Positions 6,127 through 12,385 of a DNA stretch of 12,385 nucleotides are shown here, piece by piece. The notes under the pieces were generated by a model. That model was not told the origin of the DNA and did no database searches. It saw only the letters and a list, made by a program, of their open reading frames with translations. The first letter of the stretch is position 1. Each line of letters begins with the position of its first letter. Made by a program: the position numbers and the translations under genes. The DNA comes from Candidatus Peribacteria bacterium (GTDB lineage Bacteria > Patescibacteria > JAEDAM01 > Absconditabacterales > Absconditicoccaceae), in NCBI GenBank assembly GCA_031261265.1, contig JAISKI010000040.1:1-12385 (forward strand). Reading direction: 5' to 3'.

Positions 6127-6188
6127 GGTATACGTTGCAACAAAAAATGTAGACTTTTCTTCTAGGAAGGAAATGAAGCCGAAGCAAT

Positions 6189-6216
6189 GAGAACTACTTT
6201 GTCACTCAAAGTTCTC
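6189..6216. repeat. Bulged inverted repeat in the peptidase leader
   Basis: GAGAA (6189-6193) plus CTTTG (6197-6201) pair with CAAAG (6207-6211) plus TTCTC (6212-6216), with a 3-nt bulge on one side and a 5-nt loop. There is no U-tract. It may be a dispersed palindromic repeat or an mRNA leader structure. Confidence 0.45.
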
Positions 6217-6358
6217 CAAGCATATTCACTTGTACTGCTACAAAATAGTAAAACGAATAGTAGGGAGACAAGCCTACTCAAAAAATAAAACAAAAATAAA
6301 TAATAGTATTCATCTGTTTCAATTTTATCAGATTGAAACAAAACAAAAACAAAAGAAC

Positions 6359-7411
6359 ATGAAACAGTTCAAAAAAATTTCGAGTTTATTTGCGGTGTGT
6401 TTCATCGCTAGTATGTTAGGTATGTTTTCATCTTGTGATCAGGATGAAGATATAGTATCAGTTCCCCCTCCTGTAGTGGAAGAAAGTTTAAGTCTAAATA
6501 ATCCATCACTGAGGGCATCTTCTGGTACTACGGTTTTAGGACTCTCCTCATCTTACTTAACAAGCCATTATGGTCATGTCTGCCAACATCGAACATTTAG
6601 TGGCTGGAATGCCAATAGTTCTTATGAGTTGCAACCAAATACTTCTAATGGTTATCCATACGTAGTTGGTAGTTTTACTTCTTTGCCCTATCAAGTAGTA
6701 GTTAATGGTAATTGTGGGGTCGCTGCATATGTAATTGCAAGGGGATTGGGATATTATGGTTCAAATCCTCCTTTCAGTTTATTGTCAGATCACGCTAATG
6801 CTACTACAAGGAAGCATAATACCGTTGTGTATTGTCAAACTTCCATGCGATTACATAGAGAAAAGCCATCCTATAATTTCGGGATACCAGCTATTGCTGA
6901 TATTCATGATGGAATCGCTCAAGGAGATGGTGTATCTGTATCTGATAAAGAATATTTAACAAATCCAACTAGCCCTACAGTTGGCTCTAGATCAAACTTT
7001 GTTGATGCAACTTTCTCTTGGGCAAAAAATGCAACAGGTCGTACTGCATATAAAAATGCGTTAGAAGCATCTTTACAGAGACAAAAACCCTTTGTTACTA
7101 TAGTGAAAGTACAAACAAGTAGTCATCCAATAAAACAAAATGGGGGAGATCAAGTTACATTATATTCTTCGTATAATTGGACAACTAATACTGGAAACTA
7201 CATATCAACAAGTGGTGGCGGACACTATATTGTTATTGTTCGATTAGAAAAAGTTACTAATAGTAACGGAGATATCGATGGAGACGCAAGTAAAATCTAT
7301 TATTTAGATCCTTATTGGGATGCAAAAGTAGTGTGGGAAACTACCTATCATAAATTAGTAGATTCTGCTGAATCAGCTGGAACCTACTATAATGGTTTTG
7401 GTTTTCTATAA
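6359..7411 (+). CDS. C39-like cysteine peptidase lipoprotein, Bacteroidota-like
   Basis: A 350-residue predicted surface or periplasmic lipoprotein. The signal peptide M-K-Q-F-K-K...M-F-S-S-C ends at lipid-modified Cys26, followed by acidic D-Q-D-E-D, resembling the Bacteroidota lipoprotein surface-export signal. The rest fits a papain/C39-like fold: a putative nucleophile Cys119 in 'N-G-N-C-G-V-A-A', His289 in 'G-G-G-H-Y-I-V-I-V', and Asp317 in 'Y-Y-L-D-P-Y-W'. The substrate is unknown; peptidase C39-like family 2 is my best match from pattern alone. None of its roughly 30 glycines uses UGA, and GGT is common, unlike nrdD. ATG 6359 is chosen because it begins the signal peptide; an upstream in-frame ATG at 6230 would bury it. 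The gene is flanked by a terminator and is probably a horizontal gain. Confidence 0.65.
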   Translation: MKQFKKISSLFAVCFIASMLGMFSSCDQDEDIVSVPPPVVEESLSLNNPSLRASSGTTVLGLSSSYLTSHYGHVCQHRTFSGWNANSSYELQPNTSNGYPYVVGSFTSLPYQVVVNGNCGVAAYVIARGLGYYGSNPPFSLLSDHANATTRKHNTVVYCQTSMRLHREKPSYNFGIPAIADIHDGIAQGDGVSVSDKEYLTNPTSPTVGSRSNFVDATFSWAKNATGRTAYKNALEASLQRQKPFVTIVKVQTSSHPIKQNGGDQVTLYSSYNWTTNTGNYISTSGGGHYIVIVRLEKVTNSNGDIDGDASKIYYLDPYWDAKVVWETTYHKLVDSAESAGTYYNGFGFL

Positions 7412-7487: not shown

Positions 7488-8645
7488 ATGAAAAAAATAG
7501 TTCAAATAATATTTTATAGCCTATGTATTCTCTGATGATGTAGTAATACAGAAACTCCTATGGATTGATCCTTCGTAGATGAAACATTAATTGAAAGATA
7601 TTCGAAAAATGCAATAGTTATTTCTGAATTAGAAAGATCAGTTATAGCAAGTTGATTATCGTTTAACTTATTACCTATTGATGGATTTAAAATAAGTCCT
7701 TCTCCTATAGACGAAAACAATACCGTTACAGATTTTCTTTTTATAGATTATAACACTAAAGAAATTGGAATACACTTTTTTGATTTTATGCCAAATGAAC
7801 AAAATATTATGCGAAAATACAGCTTAGACAGTATTGGTGTTCCTTATGAAAATATCTATCCTCCTCTTAAAGATTTAGATATTACTAATGAGAACAGAGC
7901 AAAGTTCCCTGAATATTATTATATTCCTGATGTCCCAGATTATACTCAATCCTATAAAAAAGAATATTTGCAAAATAGTATTTGAAAAGAATATATCCCT
8001 TTCTATTATCAACCTATGATAGAGGCAGATTTTGATACCTTTATCCTCTGGACAGGGCGGATGTATGCTTCAGATAAAAATCAAGTATATATTTTACTCA
8101 GATATGATATTCCAGTGCTGGATCACAACAAATTCAATTATGAAGTTTTCAGAAGAAACGGAATTATTCAATATCCTTTTTATAATATAATACCAGGAGC
8201 AGATCCTAAGGAAGGAAATCAAATAGACCATCCTTTTTACTTAGTACAAAGTGGAGGAGTTTGGTATAAAGGTGTAAAGTTAGAAGAAGCTGATCCTTCT
8301 GCCGAGATTTTGTATTACGGTTCAGAGTACTTTGTTCAAGATGAATGAGTATGGTTTGAATATATAAAAATACCAGAGGCTTCTCCTAAGACTTTCAAAA
8401 TAATAAAAGACTATCCACAGAATGGATATGCTTTAGATGAGAAATATCTCTACAATAATATCACTAAAGAAACCAAAGAAAATATTAAACAAAATCGGTC
8501 ATACTACCGATGTATATATAAAGAGATATTTCAACAAATTAAAGATAATCCAGTATATTATAACAACGCATTAGTGGAACTAATGAGAGAAACAAACAAT
8601 ATGGAATGAGTATATGAAGATAAAAGGTGTGTGCTATTATCATAA
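7488..8645 (+). CDS. DKNYY-type lipoprotein with seven UGA glycines
   Basis: Under standard code this region is only fragments. With UGA as Gly it is one 385-residue frame ending in TAA. Codons 16 and 17 are tandem TGA-TGA just before TGT (7533-7541), making the signal-peptide end C-I-L-G-G-C a proper lipobox with Cys18. Other UGAs are at 7566, 7653, 7983, 8346 and 8607. The body resembles the DKNYY family: 'A-S-D-K-N-Q-V-Y', 'I-P-G-A-D-P-K', and 'I-P-E-A-S-P-K-T-F-K' followed by 'Y-A-L-D-E-K-Y-L-Y'. These are repeats of a Tyr-rich unit of unknown function, usually on secreted or surface proteins. Tyr and Asn content is high. The start has a weak AGAGAA upstream. No promoter is evident between it and the terminator. 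Confidence 0.75.
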
Positions 8646-8792: not shown

Positions 8793-9527
8793 ATGTTGAT
8801 TACTCTTTGAGGGAGAGCTGGAAGTGGAAAAGGAACAATTGCCAAACTCTTGACCCAAAAACTTGGATATGAAACGATCTCTATTGGAGATATGAGAAGG
8901 AAATTAGCAGAAGAAATGGGACTAAATATTCAGGATTTTAATCTCCTCGGCGATAAACCAGGAAATCAAGAAGAGTTTGACCTCAAATACGAAGAATACC
9001 AAAAAAATCTCCACTTGGAGGATAGTATCATTCTCGATAGCAGATTAGGATTTTACACTCAACCAAAGGCATTTAAGGTGCTTCTTGATGTAGATGAAGA
9101 GGTCGCGAGTAAAAGAATTCTCTGAGCTCAAAGGGAAACCGATCAATTTGAAAGTCCTGAAGAAGCTTTGAAAGAAGTAAAAGAAAGAAATCTGAACGAT
9201 CAAGAAAGATACAAAAAATTGTATGATATCAATGTTTGGGACTATAAAAACTATACCCTCGTCATTGATACCAGCGAAAGAACTCCAGAAGAAGTTCTTG
9301 AAATTCTGCTCAAAGAATTTAAACTCCGAAAGATAAAGAAAAGAGAAAGCTGAGATCCTGATTATACCTTTCTTACTACCGCTGAACCCGACCTCACCAC
9401 TCTGGAACAAAGTAAAGCTCTTTCCAAAGCAAAGCATAAAAAATCGTTGCTCAAAAATATTTTACTCCTTCTCGCTCTCATCGTAATTGCAGGACTCTGG
9501 ATCGGAACGGTTCTTATTTCAAAATAA
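8793..9527 (+). CDS. cmk: Cytidylate kinase-like protein with C-terminal membrane helix
   Basis: The kinase transfers phosphate from ATP to CMP/dCMP. The frame requires UGA as Gly at residues 6, 111 and 187 (8808, 9123, 9351) and gives 244 residues. The P-loop G-G-R-A-G-S-G-K-G-T lies at 6-15, its first Gly being a UGA. Next come 'S-I-G-D-M-R-R', the 'I-I-L-D-S-R-L-G-F' segment, a lid region with Arg, and 'D-x-x-R-Y-x-x-L-Y-D-I-N-V-W-D-Y...L-V-I-D-T-S'. This matches the short archaeal-type cytidylate kinase rather than the ~225-residue E. coli type. About 60 extra residues follow, ending in a hydrophobic helix (N-I-L-L-L-L-A-L-I-V-I-A-G-L-W-I-G) near 222-241, as if tail-anchored. That extension is unusual for the family. 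Its 3' end overlaps ksgA, convergent, by 14 bp. No Shine-Dalgarno. Confidence 0.85.
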
Positions 9528-10311
9528 GTGCTACTTCTGATCGAGAAAGCTCTTCGAGCCTCTTTCCTTGGAGATGTTCAGGAATCGGAAAATATTTCTC
9601 TTTTTTCTCTATCATTTTCGCGATTTTCCCTAGGGTTTTTCTACTATAAGGAGAAAAGAGGTCTAAAAACTCTACCAATCTTTCAAAAGAAAGCTGAGGC
9701 AATACAGATTTTTTAGCTAGTGAAACTAAGCAGCTTTTTACTTTCGGAGCAGGGTTGAAGGCTTTGGCGGGTACCGTCTTGAGATATTCAACGTGATAAG
9801 CATAATTTAAAAGTCGGTATAAATAGGATTTTTTTCCTGCATCTCGCTTAATTTTCTCGCCTACTTCCGCCTGAATCATAAAAATCCCCCCAATAACCTG
9901 TCATTGCGAGCGGAACGAAGTGGAAGCGTGGCAATCTAAAGGCTGTAAACTTTTTTGCTCTGCAGTAAAAAACTTTCTGAGAATGGGAGAGGTAATATAA
10001 TAAGGGAGATTTCCCACAATAAGCGAGGGAGTAGAAATGCTCTGCAAATCCACATTAAGCACGTCATCGAGAATAATAGTTCCTTGGTTTTCTAAAATCT
10101 CCTCTAACCCCGCTTTTAGGGTATCATCTTTTTCAATAACCGTAAAATTTGGAGAAATCTCTTTGATGAGTTTGGTAATTGCTCCCTTTCCTGGTCAGAT
10201 TTCTATAATCGCTTCAGCTTTCCAGTCGTGGTAAAGTTTTTTCACTTTGTCTGCGATTCGATGTCTGACCTTGGTATCGGTGAGGAAATTTTGTCCGAGA
10301 TAGGTACCCAC
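9514..10311 (-). CDS. rsmA (ksgA): 16S rRNA (adenine-N6)-dimethyltransferase with repeat insertion
   Basis: KsgA/RsmA dimethylates two adjacent adenines at the 3' end of 16S rRNA during late small-subunit assembly. Visible motifs: N-terminal 'Y-L-G-Q-N-F-L-T-D', SAM-binding 'I-I-E-I-G-P-G-K-G-A-I' with its first Gly (residue 39) a UGA (10195-10197), catalytic 'N-L-P-Y-Y' at 101-105, 'F-M-I-Q-A-E-V' from 144, and a C-terminal helical domain with 'V-P-A-K-A-F-N-P-A-P-K-V'. Between NLPYY and FMIQ the chain is about 18 residues longer than in E. coli KsgA. The extra part is the in-frame translation of a REP-like element (9900-9937), passing a second UGA (9901-9903, residue 137). I chose GTG 10309-10311 because it directly precedes the conserved N-terminus; the only upstream ATGs in frame overlap infC. 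Under standard code the gene would look broken in three. Confidence 0.9.
9900..9937. repeat. REP-like palindromic element inside ksgA
   Basis: On the plus strand it reads GTCATTGCGAGCGGAACGAA followed by GTGG and GCGTGGCAATC, with ATTGC/GCAAT at its ends. The form 'GTCATTGCGAG...GTGGCAATC' is a widespread dispersed palindrome in bacterial genomes, normally intergenic (established pattern, from memory). Here it is read on the minus strand as ...L-D-C-H-A-S-T-S-F-R-S-Q-G in KsgA. It is the only copy I see in the window. Confidence 0.75.
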
Positions 10312-10366
10312 AATGAGCGATAAAGGAAATAAAAAATCTTCCCAATCCGTAGATTGGAAAGAGGTA

Positions 10367-10990
10367 TTATCATCTAGAGAATAGGATAACACTGTATCCC
10401 TGTGCTTCTTTTTTTGGTGTATCATACTGAGATCTTCCCAGTGTGGAAAGAGCATTTTTAACCGCAATTATTTTTTCCAAAGCTTTATCTGCATACATTC
10501 TCTCTCTACCTTTGAGTCTGATACTTATTTTCACATTATCTCCATCGCGGAGAAATTCTTCAGCTTTTTTGATCTTTAATGCTAAATCATTTTCACCAAT
10601 ATTGTAGGAAAGTTTGATTTCTTTCATATCTTTACCTTTCTGACTTTTCTTTTTTTCTCTTTCATCTTTCCCTTTTTGATACATATATTTTCCATAGTCG
10701 GTCAAACGCACTGTGGAAAGCATTTTTTCTGGATCGTAAGTAATCTGTACAAGGTCTAATCATGCTTCCTCTGCCATTTCTAAAGCTCTACGCCTAGGAA
10801 AAGTTCAAAGATTTTGCTTCTCATCGTCAATAATGGTAATGGAAGGGGCTTTGATCTGGTCATTAATATACATCATTCTCGCTTTTGGATTGACGGTATT
10901 TGTCTGCTCATTTCTATGAAAAGTATGAGAAGGAGTTGTACTACTTCTCGGAGCTGTGGTCCCCGGTTTCACAAAAGGTTTTCAATCCAT
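10367..10990 (-). CDS. infC: Translation initiation factor IF-3
   Basis: IF-3 binds the 30S subunit, keeps it free of 50S and checks the initiator tRNA/start-codon match. The frame needs four UGA glycines (10982, 10805, 10760 and the last codon 10370) and ends TAA at 10367-10369, so the protein ends ...F-S-R-G. The IF-3 N domain starts at 'Y-I-N-D-Q-I-K-A-P-S-I-T-I-I-D' and includes 'A-E-E-A-G-L-D-L-V-Q-I', then the 'D-Y-G-K-Y-M-Y-Q-K' linker. The C domain has 'K-E-I-K-L-S-Y-N-I-G...D-N-V-K-I-S-I-R-L-K-G-R-E-R'. ATG 10990 gives 207 residues with a Thr/Ser/Pro-rich N-terminal extension; ATG 10876 would give 169, closer to the usual ~175. The upstream frame is closed by TAA eight codons before 10990. 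It sits between ksgA and two tRNA genes, probably one transcription unit. Confidence 0.92.
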
Positions 10991-11351: not shown

Positions 11352-12385
11352 CTAAGAGGAGACAGAATTCTGAAAACAACGGAGAGAGAAGGCGTACGCA
11401 CGATTATCGTAATCATTGGAATACACGTAGGACGGATTGAAGTACAAGTAGCGAGCGTTGGTAGAATACGGACTAGATGACCAATAGAGGGCGTAGTAGC
11501 CCTGATAGAAGACCGTAGCAGAGGAATCATAACTGCGGTAGCCAGCAAGCGGGATTAAGAAGTCATTTCTAAACATCTCACCCACCGTACCTGTAGAAAT
11601 ATAAGGAAGACCTGCTCAAGCATTTTGCAATGTTCCTCCTATTGCTCCAGAATTTACATTATACCAGGTTTGGAGTAATCCTCCCCATTCATAGGCACTA
11701 GGCACATGATATCCAGCAGGACATGGTCCCTGTCTATCAGCGTCTTTACCTGCCCAATTTGATTGAGTATCTCCACTTCCTCCTCGGAGGTTATTATTTC
11801 CTGGATTTGACCAATCACTTCCTGCTTTTACATAATATCCACTATTGTAATAGTTCCCTGGACCAAAACCACTTGCATCAGGTCTTGTAGTCCCTGAAAG
11901 AAGAATAGTACCAGAATTTGGGAATGGAGTATTATTTCCCCACTGGAAATAATCTCAGTAGGAAGGATCCCAACAGTCTCCTCCATTACCATAATTGGTA
12001 CAAGTTCCACCTGCCCAACCATTATAAAGTTTTCCAGTACCTGCTACTGTAGCCCCTAAGTTTCTATCCATAATCGTATAGAACTGAGTTCCGTCACTTA
12101 CGGTGATCGTACCTGCAACTTCATCATGAGATACCCCTAGAGCTGGACCACTTGATACACATTCCTGTCCATCATCCAATTCATATCCTTCTGCACATTC
12201 AAAACGACAGCCTTCATCTGCTTCTGTATAGTAGATGGGCTTAGCTGAAGGTAGCCATACATTATGACTCACTTCTGTCTGCTCTATAGTCAGACTTTCT
12301 ACTCCTGTAGTAGCTCCTCCTGTACCACTCACCCATGTAGTACCTGTACCTGCAGGTCCACATCGAGATCCATAGGTCACACTAG
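11352..12385 (-). CDS. FISUMP-domain surface protein, C-terminal part
   Basis: At least 343 codons, with the start beyond the right edge of the window. The frame is joined through UGA at 11955-11957 (D-P-S-Y-G-D-Y-F-Q-W-G) and 11616-11618 (L-Q-N-A-G-A-G-L-P). The pattern is the 'Fibrobacter succinogenes major paralogous domain': 'I-M-D-R-N-L-G-A', 'Y-F-Q-W-G-N-N', 'C-P-A-G-Y-H-V-P-S-A-Y-E-W', 'I-P-L-A-G-Y-R', 'Y-W-S-S-S-P-Y', and the end 'A-F-S-L-R-C-F-Q-N'. Before it come a Gly/Thr-rich stretch and an EGF-like Cys cluster 'C-R-F-E-C-A-E-G-Y-E-L-D-D-G-Q-E-C'. Such proteins are thought to be extracellular, with no proven biochemical role. It ends in TAG, followed by a GC-rich hairpin. Confidence 0.85.

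Follow-up and report, generated by a model that had tools for sequence, protein, structure and literature searches.

The locus described here raises the question of how a ksgA gene can carry a repeat with a built-in TGA and still be read to its end. We analyzed the whole stretch of 12,385 nucleotides (hereafter, the window), in which a mechanical open reading frame at 9514-10467 on the minus strand contains ksgA/rsmA. This frame was longer than the probable gene: because full-length relatives begin near TYLGQNF, the probable start was the GTG at 10311 (10309-10311), giving a protein of 265 residues encoded at 9514..10311 (minus strand) under code 25. The product showed the features of KsgA/RsmA, namely the RrnaAD domain (118.1 bits against the Pfam cut-off of 24), motif I, NLPYY, and the KsgA fold, while TIGR00755, its top NCBIfam model by E-value, scored 151.8 bits and hence stayed below the equivalog cut-off of 171.

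Apart from the TGA within the repeat, ksgA contained a second in-frame TGA at 10195..10197 (minus strand, residue 91), which by comparison with relatives occupies the first Gly of E-I-G-P-G-K-G, the stretch that we take to be the SAM-binding motif I. Relatives covering this position had either G or W there, the W presumably reflecting UGA translated with table 4 by the database. With TGA at the conserved glycine of motif I, the window appears to fit genetic code 25 (UGA = Gly). An in-frame TGA was found in nine of the ten reading frames examined in the window (mechanical frames, not all of them proven genes), and no tRNA-Gly with the anticodon UCA was detected within the 12.4 kb. The expectation that a standard-code reading would truncate the gene was correct, as table 11 split ksgA into pieces, the C-terminal one beginning just past the insert. 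The database entry for the KsgA of this contig, P0121, is a 121-aa fragment, 100% identical, that begins just past the insert as well, and is an instance of how table-11 annotation cuts genes of this kind inside the repeat. Other KsgA entries, including P0127, P0128, P0132, P0134, and P0135, were also only 121-125 aa long and looked like fragments; P0127 was seen to begin with the Met of FM[VI]Q, and judging from their length the other short entries would share this start. Such entries were perhaps caused by table 11 stopping at a TGA just upstream of FM[VI]Q, and code-25 genes seem to be widely truncated in public sets.

Elsewhere in the window, two proteins encoded at 6173-7411 and 7488-8645 had lipoprotein-like N-termini by eye and no match in Pfam or NCBIfam. 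The former gave the impression of resembling Bacteroidota surface proteins, which could hint at gene transfer from a host bacterium. An open-ended gene with a Fib_succ_major domain was located at 11352-12383, near the genes for tRNA-Glu and tRNA-Arg.

The original prediction placed an in-frame palindromic repeat, with a TGA at 9901-9903, inside ksgA, and this was borne out. Pattern and DNA matches delimited a 38-bp repeat at 9900..9937 (plus strand), GTCATTGCGAGCGGAACGAAGTGGAAGCGTGGCAATCT, which is of the GTCATTGC...GCAATCT kind and has the ends GTCATTGCGAG...GGCAATCT. The pattern GTCATTGCGAGN{8,30}GCAATC occurred once in the window and in none of 200 shuffles, and no second copy of the repeat was found elsewhere in the 12.4 kb. 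On the coding strand the repeat reads TTA GAT TGC CAC GCT TCC ACT TCG TTC CGC TCG CAA TGA C, so that the ksgA frame runs through it as L-D-C-H-A-S-T-S-F-R-S-Q-TGA. The repeat-borne TGA (9901..9903, minus strand) corresponds to residue 189 of the long ORF and residue 137 of KsgA; the loop translation thus includes DCHASTSFRSQG, with Gly at the UGA, and ksgA stays open through the repeat because UGA is glycine here.

Although the term palindrome was apt for the family, it described this copy poorly, since the copy pairs weakly, with a stem of 5 + 2-3 bp around a 14-nt loop, and folded no better than shuffles as either RNA or DNA. The Rfam threshold was reached in the window by two tRNAs only. 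A structural RNA role for the repeat at 9900-9937 is unlikely, and these folding results also speak against the copy having been kept as a nucleic-acid element such as an mRNA hairpin, a terminator, or a protein-binding site. Copies elsewhere often possess longer complementary middles, which counts in favor of such an element, but for the copy in ksgA we consider this explanation very improbable. Around the borders there were four 4-nt direct repeats, of which two were in frame (45 and 51 bp); because direct repeats of this length are, by a rough estimate, about at the chance level, no target-site duplication is claimed.

Related copies were found outside ksgA. A blastn search returned a plasmid of the cyanobacterium Fischerella (E 8e-9, 93.3% identity across 45 bases of the query) and a plasmid of Hymenobacter, a member of the Bacteroidota (E 4e-6, 92.5% across 40 bases), as the sole matches among 72,556 plasmid records, and nothing among 50,697 phage records. 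Both plasmid matches fell between annotated genes of a gene table that is incomplete, which agrees with the predicted intergenic type. The pattern GTCATTGCGAGN{8,30}GCAATC was present in at least 120 IMG/VR stretches, and 120 of these together with the two plasmid stretches made up 122 loci with 213 copies between them, whose ends were conserved and whose middles varied. The long-loop form of the repeat in the window was not found in exact scans of IMG/VR. Among sampled genomes, the pattern occurred in 1 of 101 in one phylum and 3 of 150 in another, one copy each, and the reversed control pattern in none of either set. The repeat is therefore better called patchy than widespread, the term that had been proposed. 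One IMG/VR stretch (L049, 2695-2819) bore four tandem copies with 33-bp spacing, three of which were enclosed by a standard open frame reaching 50 codons or more in both directions.

For comparison of the loop between NLPYY and FMIQ, 224 related proteins were used, consisting of the best 120 of 2495 matches and 104 further proteins; 150 of them were measurable, and the 74 without one of the two motifs, including the fragment P0121 from the window itself, were dropped. Counted as FF...FMIQ, the loop of the window was 30 residues long, while 121 of the 150 relatives had 13, and it was the longest of all 151, followed by one of 28 residues. The extra segment, 17 residues above the usual 13, corresponds approximately to 9901..9951 (minus strand). 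The same count applied to what we take to be the E. coli KsgA sequence gave 12 residues, in accordance with the predicted excess of about 18. Loops of 19-28 residues also occurred in 8 of the 150 relatives, with unrelated sequences; because the loop is thus variable and permissive, extra length alone proves nothing, and it is the DNA match that does. In P0122, for example, which is 72% identical, the loop reaches 28 residues and contains no repeat sequence, and long loops therefore also arise by other routes.

The long loop might instead be an old feature of the family whose likeness to the repeat is coincidental. The eight long-looped relatives lend some support to this explanation, as does P0081, which has FFTAEQ and the upstream flank in common with the window and a loop of 21 residues, but the DNA match is far above chance, and the closest relatives among the matches listed are short-looped without anything like the insert. 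P0001, the best match, was 75% identical over the part covered (86% for the C-terminal query, downstream of the insert) and has FFSHEHPNILGGLFMIQ at the place of FFTAEQKSLQPLDCHASTSFRSQGQVIGGIFMIQ in the window, with a short loop, the nearest among the matches listed. In a 5-mer scan against the six-frame translations of 161 distinct copies, the loop of the window gave eight consecutive hits, and none of the 150 complete relative loops gave any. Over whole proteins, 25 of the 224 (P0121 included) had hits, which were scattered and below the shuffled mean of 58. The segment was accordingly missing from the close relatives sampled, a point that the original prediction had proposed to check; on the question it raised of an old family loop, the same segment was found in none of the 150 loops, although long unrelated loops did exist in eight. 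We regard a coincidental old loop as barely credible. As 0 of 150 loops contained repeat 5-mers, the insertion looks private to this lineage among the relatives sampled.

A protein search limited to residues 160-202 gave no candidate and was unreliable, having missed even P0081; a KsgA search of genome contigs returned two loci of 32-33% identity from other groups; and a KsgA alignment scan of IMG/VR yielded 23 stretches that fit a pattern, none of them confirmed. A further relative, P0002 (330 aa), displayed two long inserts at other places, one before NLPYY and the second, of about 40 residues and Gly/Trp-rich, near the C-terminus. These share no 5-mer with the repeat family and may be other translated repeats.

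In the structural model, the extra segment fell in a stretch of low confidence within an otherwise confident fold. AlphaFold2 on a 48-sequence alignment gave a mean pLDDT of 86.3 and a pTM of 0.83 for KsgA, and the best matches of the model were solved KsgA/Dim1 structures, among them those of A. aeolicus (3ftf), C. burnetii (3tqs), and E. coli (3tpz), with TM-scores by query length of 0.69-0.78 in the top ten. Residues 121-136, between helix 104-115 and strand 139-147, had pLDDT values below 50, which fits a flexible loop in the model, the low confidence being consistent with such a loop and no proof of it.

The insert comes from one contig, and an assembly artefact or strain mixture, in which a read with the repeat was wrongly assembled into ksgA, had to be considered. 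Among the KsgA matches listed, no independent assembly carrying the insert was found, the 100% match P0121 being the window itself. The contig is a single one of 12,385 bases, short repeats favor misjoins, and 38 bp is no multiple of three; against this, the ksgA frame is the same before and after the insert, both sides match relatives, and by simple reasoning only about one in three random misjoins would leave the frame intact. We therefore judge a misjoin improbable, and favor a genuine insertion of the repeat into ksgA.

Among known elements, the nearest in description were the CGTC-tagged REPs (PMC3733652, BMC Genomics 2013), reported there from five phyla, with TGTC as a common variant of the tag and CCTC as another, stems of 8-9 bp and loops of 4-5 nt (some exceptions aside), and tails that are mostly CCA. 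According to the same description, REPs are mostly intergenic and some lie within genes, including in Rickettsia conorii. The copy in the window resembles them in having a terminal TGTC at 9899-9902 followed by an AT-first stem, but differs in its 5 + 2-3 bp stem and 14-nt loop and in its tail, GCAATCTAAAGG, which contains no CCA. Because stem length, loop size, and tail all depart from the families as described, we did not file it as a CGTC-REP. To judge from its sequence, it appears to behave like an intragenic REP, lying in frame in a conserved gene and being absent from the homologues examined. As far as the description in PMC3733652 goes, it is also similar to the Rickettsia palindromic elements in being a palindromic repeat in frame within conserved protein genes. 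The suggested likeness to these elements was upheld in that the in-frame insert in a conserved gene was missing from the sampled homologues. It ends at the UGA frame, which is closed in Rickettsia, presumably a user of the standard code, and open in the window. Searches of open-licence papers found none that linked repeats of this sort to reassigned stop codons, or palindromic elements to Gracilibacteria and UGA, and matches listed for the letters of the repeat looked unrelated by title.

As to whether the reassignment of UGA matters, the pattern GTCATTGCGAGN{8,30}GCAATC is built such that every copy it finds has TGA in GCAATGAC. In 150 distinct copies (a non-random set among the matches listed), the number of open frames out of 900 was 685 by the standard code and 866 with TGA as sense; for the copy in the window, the respective values were five and six of six. 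Reassignment thus opens most of the closed frames, yet most frames are open regardless. At IMG/VR and plasmid loci, 186 copies gave 46 copy-frame pairs lying in standard open frames (putative genes) that reach 50 codons or more in both directions. Among the 25 longest frames of 214 copies, that of the window included, no second credible intragenic copy in the UGA frame was found; most of these frames were not credible genes, because the DNA was 50-66% GC with many TGAs. Two candidates with few TGAs were rejected individually: at L097, table-11 frames overlap the repeat, and at L010, the TGA of the repeat terminates a table-11 frame of 181 aa, which a 535-aa frame on the opposite strand partly overlaps. 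The 181-aa frame (12627-13172), a putative gene, thus ends as expected where UGA is a stop.

Taken together, these observations make it likely that ksgA of this lineage acquired a repeat of the GTCATTGC...GCAATC kind, which is read through its UGA as a loop. Its entry is shown by the DNA match and by its absence from the relatives examined. Normally intergenic, the repeat came to lie in a loop of the methyltransferase domain whose length already varied, after helix 104-115 and before strand 139-147 of the model, and in the frame that contains its built-in TGA. With UGA as Gly keeping the gene open, the repeat would, to go by sequence, add about 15-17 residues to a flexible loop. Most likely the insert serves no separate function and would survive thanks to a tolerant loop and a code in which its TGA is no stop; the insertion looks private among the relatives sampled and is probably neutral.

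More broadly, it is possible, though we hold it only tentatively and think it rather doubtful, that reassignment turns the built-in stop of the family into sense, such that bacteria with UGA = Gly would accumulate coding copies in a frame that no host with the standard code can use, and that the code would thereby shape where selfish repeats settle and add new loops to core proteins. That reassignment makes such insertions more widely tolerated is an attractive conjecture based on one case. Rickettsia and some other bacteria are already known for protein-coding palindromic repeats; a copy whose own UGA is sense, in a bacterium with code 25, offers a concrete and testable tie between code change and repeat tolerance.
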